A stretch of DNA of 20,399 nt from a virus. The stretch covers positions 1-20,399 of IMG/VR virus record IMGVR_UViG_3300007513_000245; one strand, 5' to 3'. How positions within the stretch are numbered: position 1 is the stretch's first letter; every line of letters begins with the position of its first letter. The translations under genes were made by a program, and so were the position numbers. The notes beneath the pieces are model-generated. The model saw nothing but the letters and a program-made list of their open reading frames with translations, searched no databases and had not been told where the DNA came from. This document shows, piece by piece, positions 4,608-20,399 of the stretch.

Positions 4608-6494
4608 ATGACAAAGAAAAGCAATAATAAAACAGAAGTCAAACCGATGATGACAAGTTTCGCTTCGTCTCCATATACCACTACTGACCAGTCAAGCAGG
4701 ACAAGAAGAAATGTTGGCGGACAGATAGAAAGAACTAATAGGTTTGAAAATATAGACAATGGGCTTGTGCCATTTAAATATTCTAAAGGCGTTAATAACC
4801 AAAGCTCACTTAACGTAAGAGAAGCTGTCATTCTTTGTCAAAAAGCTTATTATAATTTTTCTGTATTCAGAAATATTATAGATCTAATGACGGAGTTTTC
4901 TGCTACAAAACTTTACTTTACCGGAGGTAGTAAGAAGTCGAGAAATTTTATGGAAGCCTTGTTTAAGAAAATAGATATGCAAAGTTTTCTAGATAGATTC
5001 TTTAGGGAATACTATCGTTCTGGAAATGTTTTTATACATAGGTTTGATACTAAGTTGCAGCCGGAAGATTTCAAAAAAATAACCCAGACTTATGGTAGTT
5101 CTAATTTGTTTGCTGAGGCAGAAGGTGGGACTTTGCCTTCTAGGTATATAGTGCTTAATCCTGCGGATATACAAATGGGAGGAAACATATCATTCTTTTC
5201 TGGGATTTATCACAAAGTATTAAGCGACTACGAACTAGAGAGGTTAAAGAACCCAAGGACAGAAGAAGATCGAGAAGTATACGATTCTCTTGATGACGAA
5301 ACAAAAAAAGCCCTCAAACAAAGAAACATAGGGATGCTTAGTATTCGTTTGGATAAAGATAAAGTCACTCCCGTATTTTACAAAAAACAAGATTACGAAC
5401 CATTCTCTGTTCCTATGGGTTTTCCTGTTCTCGAAGATATAAACTGGAAATCAGAAATGAAAAAAATGGATATGGCTATCACACGAACAACAAACCAAGC
5501 CATACTGTTAATTACGATGGGCTCAGAACTTAAGGATGGTAGCTTAAACGTAAACCAAAGAAGCATAGAAACTATGCAAAAGCTTTTCGAGAACCAGTCT
5601 GTAGGGAAAGTTCTTGTTTCTGACTATACTACTCAAGCTAAGTTTGTTATCCCAGACATAGCTAGTATACTTGATCCAAGGAAATACAATGTTGTAAACC
5701 AAGACATACAAATGGGTTTGAATAATATTTTAGTTGGTGATGAAAAGTTTGCTAACACAAGTATTAAAGTTCAAGTATTTATAGAAAGGCTTAAGCAAGG
5801 TAGGGATGCTTTTATAAATCAATTTCTGACACCAGAGATAAAAAGAATCTCCAAAACTTTAGGTTTTAAAAACTACCCCGAGCCCCACTTCGAGGAGATA
5901 GAACTAAAAGATAAGACTACTTGGAATAGAGTGGTGGCTCAATTATTGCAGTACGGAATATTGACTGCAGACGAGGGTTTAGAGGCTATAAATTCAGGTA
6001 GACTACCAGAGCCGGAAGAATCTATTGAGTCTCAAAAGAAATTCAAAGAATTAAGAGACGAAGGTTATTATAACCCACTAATAGGTGGAAACGAAAAAAC
6101 AGAAGAGGGAAGACCAGATGGAAGTAAATCACCACAGACGACAAAGAAGGTTTCCCCTATAGGAGAGAATACTGTAGGTAGGGAAAAATTCAGTGTAGAA
6201 AAAATCAAGGAGAATCTATTGTTGGCTCAAAAGTTGGAATCCGAAGTACAAGAACAACTTAAGGCCAAATACGACAATAAGAGAGTAACCAATAAAATAA
6301 GAAGTCTAGCGGAAGAAATTTGTCAGGTAGTTATGGCTAATGAGATGCCAGCAGAGTGGCTAGAAAAAGCCGTAGATTATATTGACAATCCAATTGATAC
6401 AAATCATAACAAAATAAATGAGGTTCAGACTATAGCATGCGAACACCAAGTAGACGATTACTTAGCTAGTCTTTTGCATGCAAGCAAAATTTAG
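4608..6494 (+). CDS. Portal protein
   Basis: This is a 628-residue protein recognised as a portal by its position after terL, its size, and features such as a helix-rich stem with EYYRSGNVFIHRF near residue 140, a DMAITRTTNQAILLITMG-like segment in the middle, and a Pro/Gly-rich linker (GRPDGSKSPQ) before the C-terminal region. Portals form the dodecameric ring at one capsid vertex through which DNA is pumped and to which the neck attaches. Residues about 525-628 form a charged helical extension. The first 60 residues are polar, Thr/Ser/Arg-rich and probably flexible. The gene begins 1 base after the preceding stop. No nuclease or head-morphogenesis fusion was recognised. The family is assigned by eye rather than by alignment, but the context is very consistent. 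Confidence 0.9.
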   Translation: MTKKSNNKTEVKPMMTSFASSPYTTTDQSSRTRRNVGGQIERTNRFENIDNGLVPFKYSKGVNNQSSLNVREAVILCQKAYYNFSVFRNIIDLMTEFSATKLYFTGGSKKSRNFMEALFKKIDMQSFLDRFFREYYRSGNVFIHRFDTKLQPEDFKKITQTYGSSNLFAEAEGGTLPSRYIVLNPADIQMGGNISFFSGIYHKVLSDYELERLKNPRTEEDREVYDSLDDETKKALKQRNIGMLSIRLDKDKVTPVFYKKQDYEPFSVPMGFPVLEDINWKSEMKKMDMAITRTTNQAILLITMGSELKDGSLNVNQRSIETMQKLFENQSVGKVLVSDYTTQAKFVIPDIASILDPRKYNVVNQDIQMGLNNILVGDEKFANTSIKVQVFIERLKQGRDAFINQFLTPEIKRISKTLGFKNYPEPHFEEIELKDKTTWNRVVAQLLQYGILTADEGLEAINSGRLPEPEESIESQKKFKELRDEGYYNPLIGGNEKTEEGRPDGSKSPQTTKKVSPIGENTVGREKFSVEKIKENLLLAQKLESEVQEQLKAKYDNKRVTNKIRSLAEEICQVVMANEMPAEWLEKAVDYIDNPIDTNHNKINEVQTIACEHQVDDYLASLLHASKI

Positions 6495-6498
6495 AAAC

Positions 6499-7650
6499 AT
6501 GAGTGAAAATACAGATAATATACAAGATGTAAATCAGTATCTGGGAGGAACAGATATCGATATAGCGGTGCCAGATATTCCCTTGCCACCCGAACCGGAA
6601 GAAAAGAAAGAAATCAAAGACGAGGTTGACGGAGCATTCAAATTTGCTTTCATAGGTTCCGGACAGGGTGGGTCAAGAATAGCTGAGACTTTTCATAAAT
6701 TAGGCTATAGAAAAGTTGGTATTATTAACACAGCTCAACAAGACCTAAATACAGTAAATGTAGACAATAAGCTCTGCATAGGTTCAGGAGGAGCAGGAAA
6801 GGACCGGTCAGTTGCTGCTAAATGTTTCCAAGAAAAATCAGATGATGTTTTAGACTTTATGCGTCGTTCTTTTGGGGAAGATGTCGATAGGGTTTTTGTT
6901 TGCGCTGGTGCAGGCGGGGGCTCAGGAGCAGGTACTCTGAAGCCATTGGTCAACACAGCAAAAGAGTTGCAAGATACTCTACAGTCAGACAGTAGTAAGG
7001 TTGGAGTTATTTTAGCCTTGCCGAAATATTCAGAAGGCAAGAAAGTTAATGCCAACGCTTACGAGACCCTAAAAGAAGCAACCGAAATGGTTGAAAGCGG
7101 TTTAGTGTCCCCTCTCGTTATTATAGATAATGAAAAAACTAGTAAGATATACTCTAATGTTTCTGTAGCAAACTTTTGGCAGACAGCGAATATGAGTATG
7201 GCGGGAGTATTTCATTTGTTTAATATGACAGCTTCGAGAGATAGCTCTTACTCTTCTTTTGATTCTAGTGATTACAAAAACGTGCTCGACTCTGGGATAG
7301 TTATATTTGGAGCTACTCCAGTACCGGAGTGGAAAGACCCCGTTAACATATCTAGAGCAGTTAGAGGCATAGCTCAAACCGGCAGCATGTCAGGAGGCAT
7401 AGACATAACTACAGCTAATACGGCTGGAGCTATTTTAATTGGAGGAAAAGAGGTGTTAGATAACGTGCCTCAATCCAACCTTGATCAAGCTTTTGATCAA
7501 TTAAGTAGGATTTTGAGTTCTGGAAGTGTAGTACATAGAGGTATCTACAGTGGAGACAAAGATAACTTGACTGTATTTACAATCATAGGTGGAATAGCTA
7601 CCCCGAACGAAAAATTAGAGGAGCTAAAGAAACTCGGAGACGTGGAATAA
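6499..7650 (+). CDS. Tubulin/FtsZ-superfamily GTPase encoded by the phage
   Basis: This is a 383-residue protein (MSENTDN start; an in-frame ATG at 6478 inside the portal gene would add 7 residues, and neither has a clear SD site). Residues 1-45 are acidic, Pro-rich and probably disordered. The GTPase fold follows: nucleotide loop GSGQGGSRIA at 53-62, INTAQQDL at 76-83, and the superfamily signature GAGGGSGAGT at 137-146. D255-S-S-D258 matches in spacing the paired T7-loop aspartates of FtsZ (D209 and D212 in E. coli) that complete the GTPase site of the next subunit. The last strands (DNLTVFTIIGGI) resemble the FtsZ C-terminal domain, and no C-terminal partner-binding peptide follows. Family members polymerise with GTP. 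Phage tubulins (PhuZ, TubZ) position DNA or phage nuclei. Here the gene sits between portal and head genes, so roles in positioning capsids or DNA, blocking host FtsZ, or assembling the virion are all open. Confidence 0.9.
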   Translation: MSENTDNIQDVNQYLGGTDIDIAVPDIPLPPEPEEKKEIKDEVDGAFKFAFIGSGQGGSRIAETFHKLGYRKVGIINTAQQDLNTVNVDNKLCIGSGGAGKDRSVAAKCFQEKSDDVLDFMRRSFGEDVDRVFVCAGAGGGSGAGTLKPLVNTAKELQDTLQSDSSKVGVILALPKYSEGKKVNANAYETLKEATEMVESGLVSPLVIIDNEKTSKIYSNVSVANFWQTANMSMAGVFHLFNMTASRDSSYSSFDSSDYKNVLDSGIVIFGATPVPEWKDPVNISRAVRGIAQTGSMSGGIDITTANTAGAILIGGKEVLDNVPQSNLDQAFDQLSRILSSGSVVHRGIYSGDKDNLTVFTIIGGIATPNEKLEELKKLGDVE

Positions 7651-11245: not shown

Positions 11246-12412
11246 ATGAGACTTAAGTTAAAAAATACCCCAGAACAGGTTGAACTCATTAAAGCTATGG
11301 GTTCTAAGAATTCGATAGTTGCTCGTGAAGCATCTGAAGCTTTCGCGGCCTTTTTAGGCCCGGTAGTCAGGAAGGTGTTGCAGCAGGCAGCTACAGCAGG
11401 CGCTATCTATACAGATGCTCCTTTCAATCAGGACGAGGGTGCAAGTTATCCTCTGGACCTTTACTACAATGAGAATAACCAAGGTTATGTCAGTGTTTGG
11501 TCCCAGAATGTTGCGGGTGGTCTTCCGACCTCACAAGACGTTTCTGCAGTTCAAGAGTTGAAAATTGCTACTTACCGTTTGGACAGTGCCGTTTCAATTA
11601 CAAAGAAATATGCAAGACAGGCTAGGCTCGATGTTGTGAGCAAGCTTATTGAGCGTATGTCTCAAGAGGTCCTGCTTAAGCAGGAGAGAAACGCTTGGGC
11701 CGTTGCTTTAAACGCCCTCGCAAACGCGAACACTGCTTCTGTAACAGCGGCTTCCGTTGGGATTACTAGCTTGAAGGCTGGCTCTCACGTTATCCCTGCT
11801 TACGAGCAGAACAAGTTCCAGTTGTCTGATCTTAACAAGCTGATGACCCTCAACAAGAGAATCAACTCTTCTTGGGCAGACGGTACACCTGATGCTGCTT
11901 ACAGCTCCGGTATTACTGATTTGTATGTCAGTCCTGAGATCAAAGAGCAGATCCGTGCATTTGCTTATCAACCAATGAACACAATTCAGGCTCCGAGCGG
12001 AACAAGTTCCGTGCCTCTGCCGGATAACATCAGAACTGATATTTTCAATTCTGCTGGCATGCAGGAGATCTACGGTGTGAATATCGTGGAACTTAACGAG
12101 TTCGGCACTAGCCAGAAGTACAACGATCTCTTTAAAGAGTTTGCTGGAACCGCTTCTGTTGGTCCTACAGCTGCAGGCTGGACGGCTGACGCGCTTGGCA
12201 CTTCTGCTGCTGACGAAGTCTTGGTTGGTGTTGATAATAGCAAGGGCGCGTTTGTGCGAGCTCTCGCTCAGGACGCCGACACAGGTGACACCTTCACTAC
12301 TGCTCCGGATGACCAGTTCACCCAGAGAAACGAGAGAATCGGTTTTTACGGTTCCTTGGAAGAAGGTCGCGTTTGTATCGATGCCAGAGCTATTGTTGGC
12401 TTGGTGGTCTAA
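11246..12412 (+). CDS. Major capsid protein (HK97 fold)
   Basis: This is a 388-residue protein that forms the icosahedral shell. The N-terminal helical arm (about residues 1-50, KNTPEQVELIKAMGSKNSIVAREASEAFAAF) is followed by TDAPFNQDEGASYPLD, long spine-helix segments (KLIERMSQEVLLKQERNAWAVALNAL), and the typical TDLYVSPEIKEQIR and ERIGFYGSLEEGRVCIDARAIVGLVV stretches near the end. These fit the HK97-type capsid family of tailed phages, and the position after protease/scaffold and decoration genes confirms it. Codons are visibly more C/G-ended (CTC, CTG, AAC, AAG) than in the fibre genes, as expected for the most abundant protein. A strong terminator follows within 25 bases. Cleavage of the N-terminal arm by the protease is likely, but the site cannot be read off. 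Confidence 0.94.
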   Translation: MRLKLKNTPEQVELIKAMGSKNSIVAREASEAFAAFLGPVVRKVLQQAATAGAIYTDAPFNQDEGASYPLDLYYNENNQGYVSVWSQNVAGGLPTSQDVSAVQELKIATYRLDSAVSITKKYARQARLDVVSKLIERMSQEVLLKQERNAWAVALNALANANTASVTAASVGITSLKAGSHVIPAYEQNKFQLSDLNKLMTLNKRINSSWADGTPDAAYSSGITDLYVSPEIKEQIRAFAYQPMNTIQAPSGTSSVPLPDNIRTDIFNSAGMQEIYGVNIVELNEFGTSQKYNDLFKEFAGTASVGPTAAGWTADALGTSAADEVLVGVDNSKGAFVRALAQDADTGDTFTTAPDDQFTQRNERIGFYGSLEEGRVCIDARAIVGLVV

Positions 12413-12436
12413 TATACACCTCGATAAATATTACAG

Positions 12437-12464
12437 AAGCCCCCTTTTCGGAGGGGGCTTTTTT
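12437..12464 (+). terminator. Rho-independent terminator after the major capsid gene
   Basis: AAGCCCCCT at 12437-12445 pairs perfectly with AGGGGGCTT at 12452-12460 (9 bp) around the loop TTTCGG. A run of T extends to 12464. It ends the head-assembly transcript. Confidence 0.93.
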
Positions 12465-12486
12465 ATTCTTTTGTTGGGGGCTTTTG

Positions 12487-12513
12487 TGTATACTATGTAT
12501 AACGGATAAAGGA
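12487..12513 (+). promoter_or_regulatory. Candidate promoter -10 element and RBS for the gene at 12523
   Basis: GTGTATACT places a TATACT box at 12489-12494, downstream of the capsid terminator. AAAGGA at 12508-12513 is the probable ribosome site, 9 bases before the ATG at 12523. No clear -35 box is seen at normal spacing. The GTGTATA(A/C)T core matches the one at 8449-8456. Confidence 0.4.
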
Positions 12514-12522
12514 TTAAACATC

Positions 12523-12933
12523 ATGGCAGCAAAGAAAAAGACAAGCGCGGCTAAAAGGAAAACAGTAAAGAAAACCCCCAAAAAGAAGGTTAAAGCTAAG
12601 AAGAAAATGGTTCAAACTCACGCAATGGAGGAAAAAGAACCTTTTCAAAAGACCACTCTAGACCAAATATGGGGAGATACAGGTTCCTCTACATATGGAA
12701 CCTTAGAAGAATCTGTTTATATTGATAAAATAAGAAATATGAATCGTACTGACCTTCATTCTCATGCTGTTTCGGTTGGTATTTTACCTATAGATAATAG
12801 AGAGTTACTAACTTCTAGGCTTACTAGGGAATTTAGAAAACATGTTTTATCTTTCCAGAAGCCTCATGAACAAAAACGCAAAAAGCCTACTTTGTCAGAA
12901 AAAGCTAGATCTATTTTGGCAGAAGGCAAATAA
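12523..12933 (+). CDS. Lys-rich protein with SAP/HeH-like segment
   Basis: This is a 136-residue basic protein. The start at 12523 (AAAGGA 9 bases upstream, after the terminator) is preferred over the in-frame ATG at 12373, which lies inside the capsid gene and would read through the terminator. Residues 2-29 hold 15 Lys/Arg among Ala, Thr, Pro and Val (AAKKKTSAAKRKTVKK), much like a histone H1 or HU-like tail. Residues about 67-104 (YIDKIRNMNRTDLHSHAVSVGILPIDNRELLTSRL) resemble a SAP/HeH helix-loop-helix, a small nucleic-acid-binding fold. The C-terminus is again basic. It probably binds DNA, perhaps as an internal head protein that condenses the genome or as a head-completion factor, given its place right after the capsid gene. 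The SAP similarity is by eye and tentative. Confidence 0.85.
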   Translation: MAAKKKTSAAKRKTVKKTPKKKVKAKKKMVQTHAMEEKEPFQKTTLDQIWGDTGSSTYGTLEESVYIDKIRNMNRTDLHSHAVSVGILPIDNRELLTSRLTREFRKHVLSFQKPHEQKRKKPTLSEKARSILAEGK

Positions 12934-12950
12934 ACATATAAAATGCCTCC

Positions 12951-13787
12951 ATGCCGTATGATATTAAGACAGGCCAGTTAGACTTAGTCGGACTAAAAGA
13001 ATACTTTTTAAAACCGGCCTCTACAAGTTTATCTGGTAGCTCTTTAAATACGACGGGCTTCTATCCTTATACTGGCAATCCTGCTCAATTTATTACTACT
13101 GGAGATGTCCACACTATAAGTGGCGATATTTCTGGTTACATAGATTCTGTTAGTGGAGTTATAAGAACCGATCTCACTAAATCTGGTTTAGATTTAAGTG
13201 GCTATACTACCGCAACAAGAACGGAGTTAAAAACCGACATAAATAGTGTTAGTGGGGACGCTAGAGAAATTAGCGGCGACGTAAGGTGGCTCAGTGGTGA
13301 AACCTACCAACAGCAGCTTGATCTAGGTAACGTTGGAGCTAACCTAGTTTCTTCTGGAGAAAAATTAAGCATCTTAATAACCGGAGCGAGTGGGGATGGG
13401 GTTAGTGGTTATCTTACCGGTCATGTTCGTAATACTAGCGGGGTTCTTAATACGAAAATATCGAATCTAGACACTTCCTTAAGGAGTCATGTTTCTGCAG
13501 ACTATCTTACTAAAAGAGATATCTCGGAAGGGGTTTCGGGGCAAACGCATTTTTTAAAAAATCCTCATTTCAATAAAGGTATTTATTTGGATAAAATTTC
13601 TAATCATAGTAATTTCTCCACTATTCAAACTGGCGTTGGCTCATATAGTCTAGTTGAAGACTTAAGTATTTCTGGGCAAAATTACCAAACCATGACTAAT
13701 TACATGAGGTTTCCAGAAAGTGGAGATTCCTCTAGGCAAGATGTGATAATAAGTTCTCTTATGTACAAAGGAAGTATTCCTCTTTAA
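12951..13787 (+). CDS. Ser-Gly-rich fibre-like protein, paralogue of the protein at 3575
   Basis: This is a 278-residue protein whose first 45 residues parallel the fibre-like protein beside the portal gene: MPYDIKTGQLD, an aromatic/Leu stretch, LSGSS and GFYPYTG. Residues about 55-170 contain closely spaced SG doublets in heptad-like steps (TISGDISGYIDSVSG, INSVSGDAREISGDV), which suggests an elongated trimeric shaft. The C-terminal third (FLKNPHFNKGIYLDKISNHSNF) looks globular. No enzyme motif or signal peptide is seen. The start has no good SD site; the nearby ATG at 12943 is out of frame. It opens the fibre module, 4 bases before the lectin-like gene. It is likely a fibre or fibre connector attached through the shared N-terminus. 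Confidence 0.82.
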   Translation: MPYDIKTGQLDLVGLKEYFLKPASTSLSGSSLNTTGFYPYTGNPAQFITTGDVHTISGDISGYIDSVSGVIRTDLTKSGLDLSGYTTATRTELKTDINSVSGDAREISGDVRWLSGETYQQQLDLGNVGANLVSSGEKLSILITGASGDGVSGYLTGHVRNTSGVLNTKISNLDTSLRSHVSADYLTKRDISEGVSGQTHFLKNPHFNKGIYLDKISNHSNFSTIQTGVGSYSLVEDLSISGQNYQTMTNYMRFPESGDSSRQDVIISSLMYKGSIPL

Positions 13788-13791
13788 AATC

Positions 13792-15729
13792 ATGGCTGCT
13801 TACAATGGAACAAGGCGAAAACTTACGGAAGGCTTAGTAGCGTACGTTAATGAGTTGTCTAGCAAAAGTTATCTTGGGGAGCCTACCACAAACTTTATAG
13901 AGACAGCAGAAAAAGATAACAAGTTTGATGTTCATACTGGTCTCGATTTTTATAGAATATATAGAGATAAAGATCCGAACCAACAAGGTATGTATAAGTC
14001 TTTGGCTCCCGGCTATATGAAAGATTCTGATGTCGTATATAAGAATAATTTTCCAAAAGAATCGTCTACCACAGCCTTAGGCAAACATGGCTTCCAAGGG
14101 ATATATTTAGATATAGGCTCGGAATACACTTTATCGGCAGACGTATTTGTTTCAGAGGGTCATCAAAGAACTGGACTACCTAATAGGGCAGTTTTGCAGG
14201 TAACCCCCATAAACCAAGCTTCTCAGTACGGGACTTACAACTTTTCAAAAAAAGGCACTTGGCAAACAGTGTCTATTCTTATTAAGCCTAGTTTGCTAAC
14301 TGGTACAGAAGCTAGTTCTGGTACAGGAGGAAGTTCCGGATCGTCAGGAACATCTGGAACTTCGGGAGTAATACAAACTTCTATTTATTATTCTGTATAT
14401 ATGAACCCTAGAGTTAATTACCCATACCAAACTTCACAAAGCGGTAATGCTCTTCACGGATATATACTTTATAAAAATTTTCAATTAGAAAAAAATAAAT
14501 CAGAGTATGCAGGTAGTGTGCATAGAACCCAGTTTTTACAAGGTCGTCCGGGAAAAAGCTCCAATTCTGTTCCTCATTCTAATAGGTCTGCATCTTCAGG
14601 GCTTGTTGATCTTAGTGGAAATAAAAATTCTTTTAATATTGGAACCGCAAGTTTTGATTCAGATGCTAGGCCTATCTTTTCGTCGAAGGGAAACTATGGG
14701 TCGTATTACAATCTTGGAATCACTTCTACAAAATCTGGTTCTTCGTCTTATTTATCCTTGAATAATTCTAGTAAAAAAACTTATGATTTTTGGGTAAATT
14801 TAAATTCTGTCACTGATGAATATTCTACTTTATTTTATTCTGATATAACCCAATCGGGCTCTTTTACATCATACGATAATATATCAAAGAAACAGCATAT
14901 TTATATTTATAATGGTCGAGTTTATTGTGACTTTTATAATTCTAGTGGTCTTTCTACTAGCTGCTTTACTAACAGCGAGGAAATAAGCGCAAGTAACACC
15001 CATAATATTAGCGTAGTAGTAGACACGATTTTAACAGAGAGAAAAATAAAGGTATACGTAGATGGTTATATTAAAAACATTACAGTAGTTAAGAATATTG
15101 AACCTCCACCTAACGTTACCTTAAAAACTTTTAATTTAGAAAAAGGGTCAAATTTACTAAGAAGAGGGCAGACGGTAAATTATAAAGTATCTTCTTATGA
15201 CGAAAAAGGAGAATCGGTAGCTAGCGCACTTAAAACAGTTTTAATTAAGAATAATTTTACTATAGTTAATCTAACTTGGTCTAATGTTCCGTCAGCTTTA
15301 GGTTTTTCGATCTATAGATCCACAAATCCCTTAGGTAAATTTGACGACAATTCATTATTAACAAAAGTAACAAATTTTTATTTTGGTGGAGACACTTCAA
15401 ATTCAATAATTTTTTCTGATGATAATTCAATTACCCCAACCAACGGAACGCCAAAAGACGTAAACGATTACAATAAATATTCTTTAATAAATACTGATTT
15501 TTATGACGGCTCAGATCTCAAAGCAACGATAGGGGGGTTTCCTAAAATAGGCGAGGCGGGAAAGAAAAATCACACAGAAGGCAAAATATACAAGGTTTCT
15601 ATTTATAAAAAAGCTTTGAATAGTAATCAGATTTTACATAACTACATACAAGGTTCTGAGGATTTTAATTTAAATAGTGTAAATTATAGTTTTGCAGCTT
15701 CAGCGAATAGTTCCACAGGAGGATATTAA
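13792..15729 (+). CDS. Large lectin-like adsorption protein (jelly roll, LamG and inserted Fn3-like domain)
   Basis: This is a 645-residue putative tail fibre or spike. The N-terminus (RKLTEGLVAYVNEL) precedes a carbohydrate-binding jelly-roll-like region (about residues 80-240, ending GYILYKNFQLEKNKSEYAG). That region is interrupted at residues 174-192 by a Gly/Ser/Thr stretch with SGTSGTSG. A LamG/concanavalin-like domain starts near residue 265 (GLVDLSGNKNSFN). Within it, residues about 437-552 look like an inserted fibronectin-III-type domain (PPPNVTL, NYKVSSYDEKGESVAS, LGFSIYRS). The LamG then resumes with GKIYKVSIYKKALNSNQILHNY. The C-terminus ends TGGY. Such folds bind sugars on host surfaces, so a receptor-binding role is inferred. 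The neighbours are a fibre-like gene and a second LamG gene whose SD site lies in the last codons of this one. Confidence 0.87.
   Translation: MAAYNGTRRKLTEGLVAYVNELSSKSYLGEPTTNFIETAEKDNKFDVHTGLDFYRIYRDKDPNQQGMYKSLAPGYMKDSDVVYKNNFPKESSTTALGKHGFQGIYLDIGSEYTLSADVFVSEGHQRTGLPNRAVLQVTPINQASQYGTYNFSKKGTWQTVSILIKPSLLTGTEASSGTGGSSGSSGTSGTSGVIQTSIYYSVYMNPRVNYPYQTSQSGNALHGYILYKNFQLEKNKSEYAGSVHRTQFLQGRPGKSSNSVPHSNRSASSGLVDLSGNKNSFNIGTASFDSDARPIFSSKGNYGSYYNLGITSTKSGSSSYLSLNNSSKKTYDFWVNLNSVTDEYSTLFYSDITQSGSFTSYDNISKKQHIYIYNGRVYCDFYNSSGLSTSCFTNSEEISASNTHNISVVVDTILTERKIKVYVDGYIKNITVVKNIEPPPNVTLKTFNLEKGSNLLRRGQTVNYKVSSYDEKGESVASALKTVLIKNNFTIVNLTWSNVPSALGFSIYRSTNPLGKFDDNSLLTKVTNFYFGGDTSNSIIFSDDNSITPTNGTPKDVNDYNKYSLINTDFYDGSDLKATIGGFPKIGEAGKKNHTEGKIYKVSIYKKALNSNQILHNYIQGSEDFNLNSVNYSFAASANSSTGGY
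15717..15722 (+). promoter_or_regulatory. Consensus ribosome binding site deciding the start of the second lectin-like gene
   Basis: AGGAGG, within the last codons of the preceding gene, lies 8 bases before the ATG at 15731. It favours that start over the in-frame ATG at 15692. Confidence 0.85.
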
Positions 15730-15730
15730 A

Positions 15731-16588
15731 ATGTCAAGTAAAGTAAATTACGGTAAGTATAGAGTTAATACAGATGGGCTGGTATTTAGGGTAGATGGCT
15801 ATAGCCAAAGAAGTTATAATCACAACACGCAGATTTGGAAAGATCTAAGTCCCAGTGGATTAGACGTTACGTTGACTGAGACCGGCTTGTATGATGAGAC
15901 AAGTGGCTATTATAAATTTAGAAAAGGTGCTAGCGAAAATGATTTTGGAGCTATATCTGGCGCGAACTTTTCTGGCTTGAGATCATTAGGGGTTCTAAAA
16001 GATGAAGAATCAAGTTTTTCTATAGAAGTTTTCTTTGAGATAAAAAGAGATCTCTCTACTTACCCTGATGACGGAGCCGTGCTTTTCGGAAATACTGATC
16101 ATAATAAAAATGGATACTCGTATGGTATAGTTACTATGACAGGGAACGGAGATGGAACCACAAATCAAATTAGCGGATTGAAAGCTTTTATAGCTTCTAA
16201 TAAGTTTGAATCAGCCACAGTTAATAGCCCGTGGACCGGTTTAGAAGTTGTGCTTTCTGATACTAGTGACCCATCTATCTCTGGATCTAGTTTTCGTCAT
16301 GCTGCTATGACATATGATGGCAGCAACGGGAGAATGATAGGCTATTTGGATGGCGTTGTCAAAGGTACTGGCACTTACCCTCTACCAAATATTAACGCAA
16401 GTAATATAGGTGGTTTTCATACTGGTACAGTAAATGGTACCTATCAACAGTTTTACATAGGAGGGAACGCAAGCTCTGGCTTAAATACTAATATAGGAAT
16501 GGTTGCATGTTACAACAGAGCTCTTTCCAGTGGTGAGGTGTACGGTAACTGCAAGGCTGTAAAACACAGGTATGGCGGCGGATATTAA
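15731..16588 (+). CDS. LamG/concanavalin-like lectin fibre protein
   Basis: This is a 285-residue protein, with the start fixed by the AGGAGG site. Almost the whole length is one LamG/concanavalin A-like jelly roll: GLVFRVDGYSQRSY, WKDLSPSGLDVTL, SFSIEVFFEIKRDLS, FRHAAMTYDGSNGRMIGYLDGVVKG, then QFYIGGNASSGLNTNIGMVACYNRALSSGEVYGNC. The last two are the classic late strands of the fold. The beginning (GLV..V..YS..SY) and the end (GGGY) echo the larger lectin-like protein before it, so the two may be paralogues or share an assembly partner. The fold typically binds glycans, and a role in adsorption is inferred. It carries no collagen-like segment. A 38-base AT-rich gap without a clear terminator separates it from the glycosyltransferase gene. 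Confidence 0.88.
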   Translation: MSSKVNYGKYRVNTDGLVFRVDGYSQRSYNHNTQIWKDLSPSGLDVTLTETGLYDETSGYYKFRKGASENDFGAISGANFSGLRSLGVLKDEESSFSIEVFFEIKRDLSTYPDDGAVLFGNTDHNKNGYSYGIVTMTGNGDGTTNQISGLKAFIASNKFESATVNSPWTGLEVVLSDTSDPSISGSSFRHAAMTYDGSNGRMIGYLDGVVKGTGTYPLPNINASNIGGFHTGTVNGTYQQFYIGGNASSGLNTNIGMVACYNRALSSGEVYGNCKAVKHRYGGGY

Positions 16589-16626
16589 TTTTTGAAAACA
16601 AACTTCTTAATTGTTAAAACTAAACA

Positions 16627-19299
16627 ATGGAGCAGTTTAAAAAAGAAGACTTAATGGGGCGTCAAGAAGACGCAAAAGAGGTAATATTAAAATTAGGATG
16701 CGAGTCTTTTGGGGATTCTCTTTGCTCTACGCCTACGTTAAGAAAATTAGCTAAATCTTATGGTAAAAAAATAATAGTATGCTCCCATAAGCCTTTCGTA
16801 TTCGAAAATAACCCTTATGTAAAATTCCATATACATGTTAACGATTTCAAAGAAGAGTTTCGAGAGCAATACGAAGTATTAGAAACTTTTCAATTAAATT
16901 CAAATGGAATGAGCTTAAAATATGGTAGTGTTGACATAAGGAAAATTCATTGTACCAATTTAGGATTTGATCTAAAACCAAATGAAATGCATTGTGAGTA
17001 TTATCCGAGCCCAGTTAATTTTGAAGAGTCGGATGAGAATTTTTTGAATTCAGAAAGTTATATTGTAATACATATATCTAAAACTTGGCCAAGTAGAACA
17101 TGGCTAAAATCAAATTACGAAGAGTTAATAACAAACATTAATAAAGCGGGTTACAAAGTTGCCCTTATTGGTTTCGATCAAGCCAAAGAGCCCGGAAGTA
17201 ATAATTATGATAAATCTTGTTATAATTTTGAAGATTTTGTTTTCGAGGGCGTTAGTTTTTTAAACAGAACATCTTTAGATCAAGACTTTGAAATAATTAA
17301 AAAAGCTAATATTTGTGTTACTTGTGACACAGGGATATTGCATTTAGCTGGGTGTACTGACACGGAGATTATTTATATAGGAGGCTCAATAGATCCAGCA
17401 TTAAGAGCTCCATATAGGCACGGGGGTCAAGATTATAAATTTTCCTTTGTCGGAGGCGAATGTAAGATCTTTTGCGGGTCTAATATAAAATATTGCATAA
17501 CAGAGCACGCTGAGCTAAATAGTTTCCCTCTTATCTCAGAATGTTTAGAGAAGAAACCTTCTTTTGAGTGTCATCCTACTAACGAGCAGGTTTTTAAAAA
17601 AATAGCAGAAGTCAATTTAAGGAATTTAAAAGAAGCAACTTCGGAGAAGAAGAAAGTCCTTGTGGAGTTCCATAGTTCAGCCTTGGGGGATTCTGTAGCT
17701 TGGATGCCTTACGTGGAGAAATATAGGTTAAAAAATAATTATGAAGTATATTGTTCAACTTTCAGAAATGAATTATTTGAAAGAGAATATCCGGAAATCA
17801 AATTTATTAAACCCGGAGAGGTAGTTGAGGGAGACTGCGATGTTATTATAATGGGTTGGAAAAAAAATCAGGAAACAGGAGAACTCTATCCGCCCCTAAA
17901 TATAAGAAATGACAGCTTACAAAAAACTGCATCCTTCTGTCTCGGTTTAGAAGATCACTCAGAGCTAAAACCTAAAATACATATAGAAAATAAAGAAAGA
18001 CAGATAGAGGGTAAGTATGTTTGCATAAGTGTTCAATCTACGGCTCAAGCTAAATATTGGAATAATGAGGAAGGCTGGAGAAAAACTGTTAAATATTTAA
18101 AGTTACTAGGGTATGAGGTCGTATGTATAGATAGGCATGCTCAATTTGGAAAAGAAGACCAAGGATATAACTATATACCAGAAGGAGTTATAGATAAAAC
18201 AGAGGAAGACAACATACAAGAGAGAGTAACGGACTTGTATAATTGTGAGTTTTTCATAGGCTTACCTTCGGGCTTGTCTTGGCTAGCTTGGGCTCTTGAT
18301 AAAGAAGTGGTAATGATAAGCGGGTTTAGTGATCCGAAAACTGAATTTCGTACTCCTTACAGGTTAATCAATAGGGATGTTTGTAATTCTTGTTGGAACA
18401 AAGAAGAATTTGATAGAAGTAATTGGAATTGGTGCCCTTACCACGAAGGAACAGAAAGAGAATTCGAATGCACTAAAAAAATAACCTTTGAAGATGTAAA
18501 AAAAGAAATAGACAGGGCTATTAATTTCACAGAGTTAGAAAAAGAAGGGAAAATAACTTTTGATGGACTTACGCAAAATATGTTAAAGCTACCTGATAAT
18601 AATTTTTTAGGGTTAGATCTCCAATGGAAGGAGATATTCATGGATCAAGTTTATGAATCACTTTCTCCTGTAGAAAAAGGTGACGTGGTTTTAGACGTTG
18701 GGGCAAACGTAGGCTTCTTTTCGCAATTTGCAATGTGGAAAAAAGCTTCTAAATGTTATTCCGTTGAGCCGGTTCTTTCTAATTTTGAAACATTAACTAA
18801 TTGGATAAATACTTCTAAAGATAGGGGCAAGTTTCATCTTATTAATGCAGCCATAGGAGACAAAGATAAACCTCTATACGAAAACTTTTTCATGAATAGT
18901 GACGAAAATAACCACAAGGAAATAGAAATAATTAAATTAAGCGATTTTTTTAAAAAATATCATTTCGAAAATTTTGATTTTATTAAATTAGATTGCGAAG
19001 GCGCAGAGTGGTCTATACTTAACGATAAAGAAGAGTTAGATCTACTAGTCGAAAAAACAAAAAAAATAGCAATGGAGGTACACTTAAGATTAGGCTGGGC
19101 GGAAAATGCGCACATTTTTGACTTCAATTTTGATTTTATTGATAAATTTATTAATAAAGGGTTTAACATAAAATTTACTGATGTATCTGGTTTGGACATC
19201 ACAAACTCTATATTAAATAATGAAAAAATACCGGACCAAGATAACCTTTTAGCGCATGATTATTACAGACAAATTATGTTTTTTGCTCAAAAAAGATGA
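16627..19299 (+). CDS. Trimodular glycosyltransferase-O-heptosyltransferase-FkbM methyltransferase
   Basis: This 890-residue enzyme has three domains. Domain 1 (about 15-330) is a GT9-like glycosyltransferase with VTCDTGILHLAG (D234) and YIGGSIDP. Domain 2 (about 343-650) closely resembles the autotransporter O-heptosyltransferases (TibC/BAHT family): FIGLPSGLSWLAWALDKEVVMISGF, then the Cys cluster C586, C589, C603, C615 (NSCWN...WNWCP...FEC) that binds iron in that family. Domain 3 (about 680-885) is an FkbM-type SAM methyltransferase with VLDVGANVGFF at 688-698 and FIKLDCEGAEW. TibC-type enzymes put heptose on Ser of adhesin repeats; FkbM enzymes methylate sugars. It sits among Ser/Thr-rich fibre genes, so it may glycosylate fibres and cap the sugar; changing host glycans is the alternative. 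The start lacks an SD site, and the ATG at 16654 is also possible. No membrane segment is seen. Confidence 0.9.
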   Translation: MEQFKKEDLMGRQEDAKEVILKLGCESFGDSLCSTPTLRKLAKSYGKKIIVCSHKPFVFENNPYVKFHIHVNDFKEEFREQYEVLETFQLNSNGMSLKYGSVDIRKIHCTNLGFDLKPNEMHCEYYPSPVNFEESDENFLNSESYIVIHISKTWPSRTWLKSNYEELITNINKAGYKVALIGFDQAKEPGSNNYDKSCYNFEDFVFEGVSFLNRTSLDQDFEIIKKANICVTCDTGILHLAGCTDTEIIYIGGSIDPALRAPYRHGGQDYKFSFVGGECKIFCGSNIKYCITEHAELNSFPLISECLEKKPSFECHPTNEQVFKKIAEVNLRNLKEATSEKKKVLVEFHSSALGDSVAWMPYVEKYRLKNNYEVYCSTFRNELFEREYPEIKFIKPGEVVEGDCDVIIMGWKKNQETGELYPPLNIRNDSLQKTASFCLGLEDHSELKPKIHIENKERQIEGKYVCISVQSTAQAKYWNNEEGWRKTVKYLKLLGYEVVCIDRHAQFGKEDQGYNYIPEGVIDKTEEDNIQERVTDLYNCEFFIGLPSGLSWLAWALDKEVVMISGFSDPKTEFRTPYRLINRDVCNSCWNKEEFDRSNWNWCPYHEGTEREFECTKKITFEDVKKEIDRAINFTELEKEGKITFDGLTQNMLKLPDNNFLGLDLQWKEIFMDQVYESLSPVEKGDVVLDVGANVGFFSQFAMWKKASKCYSVEPVLSNFETLTNWINTSKDRGKFHLINAAIGDKDKPLYENFFMNSDENNHKEIEIIKLSDFFKKYHFENFDFIKLDCEGAEWSILNDKEELDLLVEKTKKIAMEVHLRLGWAENAHIFDFNFDFIDKFINKGFNIKFTDVSGLDITNSILNNEKIPDQDNLLAHDYYRQIMFFAQKR

Positions 19300-19688
19300 A
19301 AATAGAAATATCAAATGGAGAAATATTAGATAAGTTATCTATATTAGAAATTAAAATAGATAACATAACAGACGAACTGAAGCTAAGTAACGTAAGAAAG
19401 GAACATTCTGTCCTAAAAGAAACCCTTGGTGATCCGCCTTGGGCTGCTCATATTTTTAGGGATTATGGCTTTTATGACCAACTCAAAGAGATCAATGAAC
19501 AACTTTGGGTCATCGAAGATAACATAAGAATAAAAGAAAAAAACCAAGAATTTGATTCAGAATTTATTTCATTAGCGCGTTCAGTATACGAAACAAACGA
19601 TAAAAGAGCGGAAATAAAAAAAGAAATAAACATATACACAAAATCGAGCCTAATAGAGGAAAAATCCTACGAAGATTACTCTCAATAA
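19296..19688 (+). CDS. Small helical protein resembling DUF6165
   Basis: This is a 130-residue soluble, helical, charged protein. Its start overlaps the last 4 bases of the glycosyltransferase gene (ATGA), so translation is likely coupled. The N-terminus MKIEISNGEILDKLSILEIKIDNI, followed by NVRKEHSVL and repeated Glu/Lys helices, resembles from memory the DUF6165 family of small proteins of unknown function, which I associate with glycosyltransferase gene neighbourhoods. No catalytic motif is present. Coupling to the enzyme suggests a helper of glycosylation, perhaps a binding partner, but that is inference. Assignment to the family is moderate; that the gene is real is well supported by overlap, length and coding pattern. 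Confidence 0.8.
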   Translation: MKIEISNGEILDKLSILEIKIDNITDELKLSNVRKEHSVLKETLGDPPWAAHIFRDYGFYDQLKEINEQLWVIEDNIRIKEKNQEFDSEFISLARSVYETNDKRAEIKKEINIYTKSSLIEEKSYEDYSQ

Positions 19689-19707
19689 TGTGTAATTTAA
19701 TGAGAGT

Positions 19708-20399
19708 ATGGCGGTTAAAAGGTATGTTGGCGACAAGCTGGTCGGTTTGGATAGCGAAAAAGACGGTGTTTTAAACACGGTCTCTGAAGGTGCTAACTAC
19801 TATTCGTCTGATTCTCCCTACAACGTATATATAAGACAAAATAACGCTTGGCAACAAATAAGCGGAGGTGGGGGCGGTAGCTTAAACGTTACCGAAGTTA
19901 ATGATCCATCTAGTGATGTTTCTGTATCGAACGTAAGTACTATACAGTTTGACGTTGATTCAGGTTTTGCTTTATCTAGCCCAAGTTCTGGTGTCGTTAA
20001 GGTCGCAATGGAGAGCACCTTTAAGACTTGGCATGTTTTCGAAGATCCCGGTGATACAACTTCTGTCGATATAATAGCTACTGCTGTAGACGAAATAGAC
20101 ATCAAAGCTGGGACTAATATTACCTTGTCTGCAACGACTACTGCTGGTTCAAAAGGTATAGTAATTAATGCGCCAAATTTAGATGGCACTTCTGGTACTT
20201 CTGGTACTTCAGGATCAGATGGTATATCAGGTACTTCAGGATCAGATGGTATATCAGGTACTTCAGGATCAGATGGTATATCAGGTGCTTCCGGTACTTC
20301 GGGATCAGATGGAACGGCAGGTGCTTCCGGTACTTCGGGATCAGATGGAACGGCAGGTTCAAGTAATACCAACTCTGGTACTTCGGGATCAGATGGAAC
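19708..20399 (+). CDS. Collagen-like fibre protein, 3' end beyond window
   Basis: The reading frame is open from the ATG at 19708 to the window edge (230 codons) with no stop, so the gene continues outside. GAGAGT just upstream may serve as a weak ribosome site. The N-terminus MAVKRYVGDKLVGLDSEKDG resembles the docking region of phage structural proteins. A GGGGG linker follows near residue 56, then a beta-rich domain with TFKTWHVFEDPGD and KAGTNITLSA. From about residue 161 to the edge it is a Gly-X-Y array without proline: GTS, GSD, GIS, GAS and GTA triplets, with one break (NTNS). Such arrays form trimeric collagen-like shafts in phage fibres. The dense Ser/Thr next to an O-glycosyltransferase gene makes it a candidate sugar acceptor, which is inference. 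Confidence 0.85.
   Translation, partial: MAVKRYVGDKLVGLDSEKDGVLNTVSEGANYYSSDSPYNVYIRQNNAWQQISGGGGGSLNVTEVNDPSSDVSVSNVSTIQFDVDSGFALSSPSSGVVKVAMESTFKTWHVFEDPGDTTSVDIIATAVDEIDIKAGTNITLSATTTAGSKGIVINAPNLDGTSGTSGTSGSDGISGTSGSDGISGTSGSDGISGASGTSGSDGTAGASGTSGSDGTAGSSNTNSGTSGSDG
20221..20394 (+). repeat. In-frame tandem repeats encoding the collagen-like array
   Basis: Two exact 27 bp units (20221-20247 and 20248-20274) are followed by two near-identical 36 bp units (20275-20310 and 20311-20346) and a diverged 48 bp unit (20347-20394). All units end in GGATCAGAT or a close variant. Unit lengths are multiples of 3, and the first four are multiples of 9, so Gly-X-Y phase is kept when units are gained or lost. 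Confidence 0.92.

Follow-up and report, generated by a model that had tools for sequence, protein, structure and literature searches.

The stretch of viral DNA analyzed here (the window, a linear fragment 20,399 bases long from an uncultured virus, with every recognizable gene on the plus strand) carries what we judge from sequence evidence, with a probability of roughly two in three, to be a cassette of phage genes for protein O-glycosylation, directed at the phage's own Ser/Thr-rich fibers. At its center is an 890-residue protein with a domain like TibC, the bacterial adhesin heptosyltransferase; hundreds of phage contigs carry such an enzyme, usually beside fiber genes, so that these viruses probably sugar-coat their own fibers.

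The window also encodes an ERCC4-type nuclease, a terminase large subunit (identity at most 27% among the matches listed), a tubulin-family protein, presumed capsid genes (for the presumed capsid protein the phage collection yielded no match) and fiber-like genes. A terminator-like hairpin separates the presumed major capsid gene from a fiber/glycosylation operon, in which the genes from 12951 to the end follow one another with overlaps of up to 38 bases and gaps of up to 38 bases:

12435–12462, plus strand: strong terminator-like hairpin, 3' of the presumed major capsid gene (assigned by position)
12951–13787, plus strand: Ser/Thr-rich protein (24% S+T) of the fiber/glycosylation operon (composition, synteny)
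13792–15729, plus strand: structural protein rich in Ser/Thr (22% S+T), containing an 18-residue GTSG array, a possible further acceptor (composition, synteny)
15731–16588, plus strand: LamG_3-domain virion protein upstream of the enzyme; likely start ATG 15731 (TTG 15692 in the ORF list)
16627–19299, plus strand: fused enzyme (GT9 + TibC-like O-heptosyltransferase + FkbM methyltransferase), 890 residues in a single open frame (ORF list, domain searches)
19296–19688, plus strand: small helical DUF6165 protein, overlapping the enzyme gene by 4 bases and recurring 3' of TibC-like genes
19708–20399, plus strand: collagen-like tail-fiber gene, cut by the contig end, the proposed acceptor (Pfam Collagen, synteny)
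20185–20364, plus strand: Gly-X-X array (GTSGSDG repeats) of 60 residues, fiber residues 160–219

This tight one-strand spacing after a terminator-like hairpin suggests that the enzyme is, most likely, a late product made together with the fibers. Ser and Thr account for 24, 22, 18 and 29% of the ORFs at 12951, 13792, 15692 and 19708, and for 9–15% of most others. An earlier sequence-only reading of this DNA had described the neighbors as Ser/Thr-rich repetitive proteins; the richness held (18–29%, including the collagen-like array), while the genes at 12951–16588 proved not to be strongly repetitive. That reading did not list the DUF6165 gene, whose product has a confident, helical predicted structure with no relative in the PDB.

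The enzyme itself divides as follows:

16663–17613, plus strand: GT9 (heptosyltransferase-like) part, residues 13–329; a separate gene in syntenic relatives (51–58% identical)
17635–18522, plus strand: TibC/AAH-like protein O-heptosyltransferase part, residues 337–632 (TIGR04414, phmmer, Foldseek)
17689–17691, plus strand: D355, counterpart of the TibC catalytic base Asp-110 (alignment; role from PMC4358343)
18382–18471, plus strand: four iron-finger cysteines C586, C589, C603 and C615 (TibC Cys 339/342/358/370; alignment, PMC4358343)
18685–19152, plus strand: FkbM methyltransferase part, residues 687–842 (PF05050, 4.6e-13; TIGR01444)

The sequence-only reading had seen two glycosyltransferase folds and a sugar methyltransferase in this one protein and had proposed an HMM scan of each domain, and that scan bears it out, with all three above curated cut-offs: GT9 (PF01075, 81.6 bits against 22, best stretch residues 134–264) and FkbM (PF05050, 50.1 bits against 22.7, residues 690–842) in Pfam, and FkbM again (TIGR01444, 73.4 bits against 37.7) and the hepto_Aah_TibC equivalog (TIGR04414, residues 337–630, 340.3 bits against 200, E 1.2e-101) in NCBIfam, the last being the model of the autotransporter strand-loop-strand O-heptosyltransferases (the BAHT or TibC family). 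The best PDB sequence matches were the TibC entries 4rap and 4rb4 (phmmer, E about 1e-62; 1.5e-62 for 4rap), and the structure that AlphaFold predicts for the middle domain (pLDDT mostly 80–96) matched 4rap with a Foldseek E of 2.2e-23 and an rmsd of 2.9 Å over about 300 columns; in structural alignment, the catalytic domain of TibC and the window domain are 38–39% identical. The N-terminal beta-barrel of TibC (PF21129) is absent from the 890-residue protein, the TIGR04414 match beginning at model position 78, and we therefore confine the claim of BAHT membership to the catalytic domain rather than to the full-length TibC architecture. Assignment to the LPS heptosyltransferases was rejected on the curated equivalog cut-offs: the scores were 54.9 bits for WaaC (cut-off 185.3), 37.0 for WaaF (134.6) and 24.2 for WaaQ (170.2). 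The AlphaFold model of the GT9 half was poor.

In addition to the catalytic Asp-110, the sugar-binding residues Thr-226, Lys-230, Arg-286 and Trp-305 of TibC (roles from PMC4358343) are kept in the aligned window enzyme, as T472, K476, R533 and W552. TibC has the identical motif FIGLPSGLSWLAW (PDB sequence alignment), and the four-Cys iron finger is retained, with iron binding predicted; both the motif and the cysteines had been picked out in the middle domain beforehand, and the comparison with TibC confirms them. All 98 aligned phage domains have the catalytic Asp and 97 have the four Cys, and the sugar-contacting Arg (TibC R286) is kept in 28 and replaced in 70, versus kept in 78 of 80 bacterial domains. 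Since the clade of the window enzyme keeps this Arg, heptose is favored as its donor; the replacement in the other 70 phage homologs suggests that the donor may vary, and that other clades may use other sugars.

A profile scan of IMG/VR for the TibC-like domain confirmed at least 571 stretches, and the best 80 of these were kept. The seven nearest relatives among those 80 (L006–L012) are syntenic with the window, in the order capsid block, three structural genes, LamG, GT9, TibC-like, DUF6165 and collagen-like fiber, and the N-terminal 51 residues of the window fiber are 76–84% identical to their fibers at the equivalent place. Their TibC-like gene is fused to GT4 and GT2 (in L007, L009 and L010 also to FkbM), and their counterpart of the window protein's GT9 part is a free-standing gene; thus the window protein fuses what its relatives keep apart. 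Another contig (L182), whose capsid block and tubulin gene are closely related to those of the window, ends before the cassette. TIGR04414 matched all 57 phage relatives scanned, with GT4 as fusion partner in about 36 and FkbM in 9–11; a close GT9 relative was fused to the TibC-like gene or lay within 2.3 kb of it at 16 of 60 phage loci, and none of equal score was found near control loci in any control set. Common neighbor families of the phage genes are GT4, FkbM, GT2, LamG, GT9 and tail-sheath. A GenBank relative in Microcystis phage Mel-JY01 (a complete genome record) carries no annotation beyond that of an FkbM methyltransferase, and a 447-residue Gly-X-X array lies 1.7 kb from it. In an unrooted maximum-likelihood tree, the window enzyme groups with its syntenic relatives (support 100/98), and all but one of the 40 bacterial rows (39) fall into a single clade (100/100) set among several phage clades. 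The AIDA adhesin stalk was found in 13 of 50 scanned neighbor proteins of the bacterial homologs, which also have autotransporter domains and FkbM beside them.

Linkage to fibers was measured by looking for Gly-X-X arrays, Ser/Thr-rich and 24 or more residues long, near 60 non-redundant phage loci that had been fetched via the TibC profile regardless of fibers, 33 of them flanked by 4 kb or more on each side. Among these 33, an array lay within 5 kb in 25 and within 2 kb in 17, versus 2 and 0, respectively, of 16 terminase-centered loci; none of 50 bacterial TibC loci had one. In a same-contig control on 19 long contigs, 16 TibC loci carried an array versus 3 of the pre-chosen distant 20-kb segments, the discordant pairs running 13:0 in favor of the TibC locus. 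Co-occurrence of the enzyme with GTSG fibers had been proposed as a test by the sequence-only reading, and with controls in place it came out favorably. The reverse search, starting from GTSGTSGTS arrays, found a TibC domain at 11 of 120 loci versus 0 of 59 terminase loci, and the domain occurred near 11 of 101 Ser/Thr-rich arrays versus 0 of 96 Pro-rich collagen arrays (Fisher p 5e-4), a comparison confounded with phage lineage and GC. TibC-linked arrays have mostly Thr/Ser at X and mostly Ser/Asn at Y, with Pro at 0.3% of X/Y positions. The majority of Ser/Thr arrays, about 90% in the short loci, stand without a neighboring TibC gene; such arrays can therefore do without the enzyme.

In the mechanism that we infer, the TibC-like domain would transfer a sugar to Ser/Thr of the phage's Ser/Thr-rich fiber proteins in the cytoplasm, before assembly, with the collagen-like fiber encoded 0.4 kb downstream as the most likely acceptor; the donor in the window clade would probably be heptose from the host ADP-heptose pool. 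The GT9 domain would then probably add a second sugar, the FkbM domain would probably O-methylate the added sugar, DUF6165 may act as an accessory, and the modified fibers would be carried in the virion. Supply of ADP-heptose by the phage was rejected as a general route: in searches of 20–26 phage records, RfaE domain II and the heptose epimerase gave sub-cut-off relatives only and GmhA passed its cut-off in one 636-kb phage only, which together make no general heptose pathway. The intact heptosylation residues and the controlled co-occurrence with fibers lend support to the earlier suggestion that the phage may decorate its own fibers, with receptor tuning or shielding as possible purposes. 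Besides the many arrays without a TibC gene and the Arg replaced in most phage homologs, further points count against fiber glycosylation: the beta-barrel of TibC, missing here, serves its dodecamer; TibC is known to act on adhesins with a beta-solenoid fold, as opposed to collagen-like arrays; and the nearest array is on the same strand as the TibC-like gene in 23 of 40 cases and on the opposite strand in 17.

Rather unlikely, in our judgment, is a remodeling of the host surface, with LPS/O-antigen or another host glycan altered for superinfection block or receptor change. Two comparative papers (PMC7029224 and PMC7824862) so read the glycosyltransferases of fiber regions, GT9 is the LPS heptosyltransferase family, and GT4/GT2 partners are common among phage TibC-like genes; however, the highest score belongs to a protein O-heptosyltransferase domain, not to an LPS enzyme, and the LPS cut-offs are missed by far (54.9 versus 185.3 bits), and this reading predicts neither a late structural operon beside fibers nor specificity for Ser/Thr arrays. 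No flippase, polymerase or ligase was found among the 25 commonest of the 49 neighbor families of phage TibC-like genes, and the pattern that the sequence-only reading had named as contrary to its proposal (homologs without repetitive fibers and with host-glycan genes) was not seen among them. Neither the scanned window ORFs, on a contig that is itself a fragment, nor those 25 families included a flippase or lipid-linked sugar transferase gene of the kind that marks Gtr-type cassettes for O-antigen conversion.

That the enzyme glycosylates a surface protein of the host, be it an adhesin, pilin or flagellin, instead of a protein of the virion is quite improbable: family members in bacteria do act on host adhesins (PMC4358343) and have AIDA neighbors, but the listed phage neighbor families include no adhesin genes and the gene travels with phage fiber genes. 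The array linkage could also be locational, because the fiber loci of large phages gather glycosyltransferases generally and fiber regions are known hypervariable islands (PMC7029224), in which genes of any sort might collect; the enzyme might then have hitch-hiked there and act on something unrelated, phage DNA or small molecules for example. This we regard as slightly more improbable still, since the linkage holds for Ser/Thr arrays specifically and turns up again in divergent clades whose fusions are reshuffled, and the window showed no genes for DNA modification.

Glycosylation of the phage's own fibers would offer phage glycosyltransferase islands, usually read as O-antigen modification, a virion-fiber hypothesis that specifies the enzyme family, the residues and the acceptor, and it may explain the stability of proline-free Gly-Thr-Ser collagen-like arrays. 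The phage TibC-like pool also suggests a source for the bacterial adhesin heptosyltransferases. A bolder proposal joins these points and is possible but doubtful: that a large, phage-specific branch of TibC-like enzymes densely O-glycosylates Pro-free Gly-Thr/Ser-Ser collagen-like fibers, that the glycans stiffen the triple helix in place of Pro/hydroxyproline and govern how the fibers adhere, and that the bacterial adhesin heptosyltransferases are its descendants.

The BAHT/TibC enzymes form a dodecamer and processively heptosylate an autotransporter from ADP-heptose. The window enzyme shares with TibC/AAH (which heptosylate TibA and AIDA-I) the same catalytic and sugar-binding residues, the four-Cys iron finger and a gene position beside a Ser-rich repetitive adhesive protein, here the collagen-like fiber downstream; it differs in having no N-terminal beta-barrel, in its fusion to GT9 and FkbM, in being phage-encoded and in having a collagen-like fiber, not a beta-solenoid autotransporter, as neighbor. 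Among the open-access papers searched, none was found to mention an enzyme of the TibC type from a phage. Glycosylated proline-poor collagens and BclA-type glycosylated collagen-like proteins carry O-glycans on Thr/Ser-rich Gly-X-Y arrays, through other enzymes and in other organisms; for the phage arrays we can only infer such glycans. Pelagimyophages and cyano-jumbo phages likewise have glycosyltransferases among their tail-fiber genes, in a host recognition region; the available text of PMC7029224 and PMC7824862 reads them as modifying the O-antigen or outer polysaccharide and does not name a TibC-type domain. Glycosylation of the virion by phage glycosyltransferases is known in mycobacteriophages (Freeman et al., 2023, as cited in PMC12619734), a likeness that the genes of the window suggest; there the glycans are on the C-termini of capsid and tail-tube subunits, unlike the fiber glycans proposed here.

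Within the packaging and capsid gene block of the window, positions 6478-7650 encode a tubulin/FtsZ-family GTPase (PF00091, 8.7e-12), for which a single relative was found, in the compared locus L182. The ORF at 12373-12933, as listed with a TTG start, overlaps both the presumed capsid gene and a terminator-like hairpin; judged from its relatives, translation probably begins further downstream, at the ATG that opens MAAKKK.

Two of the nearest syntenic phage relatives carry a second, highly divergent TibC-like copy downstream of the main one (L006, 10849-11736; L008, 10660-11550), with a branch length of 1.84 and Ala in place of the sugar-contacting Arg. The sole bacterial row placed inside a phage clade of the tree, an 11.9-kb Flavobacteriales contig (L164), may be a phage contig binned together with a bacterium. 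The 636-kb phage genome LR756504.1 encodes GmhA (430182-430640; above the equivalog cut-off, E 1e-75) about 27 kb away from its TibC-like gene.

In locus L002, the TibC-like gene and a GSSG array adjoin a 1383-aa fibre (14882-19033, minus strand) built from repeats of about 20 residues of the STISGGYxNTISGHYS type, for which a Pfam search returned no match. Synechococcus phage DSL-LC02 (locus L345, 5637-17448) consecutively encodes a collagen-like protein, a beta-mannosyltransferase, two FkbM proteins and a tail fibre, the same layout as in the TibC-bearing phage loci, but without TibC. In three Bradyrhizobium loci (L086, L090 and L096), an FkbM methyltransferase-like gene adjoins the bacterial TibC homologue, an adjacency that parallels the fused FkbM and TibC-like domains of the phages.
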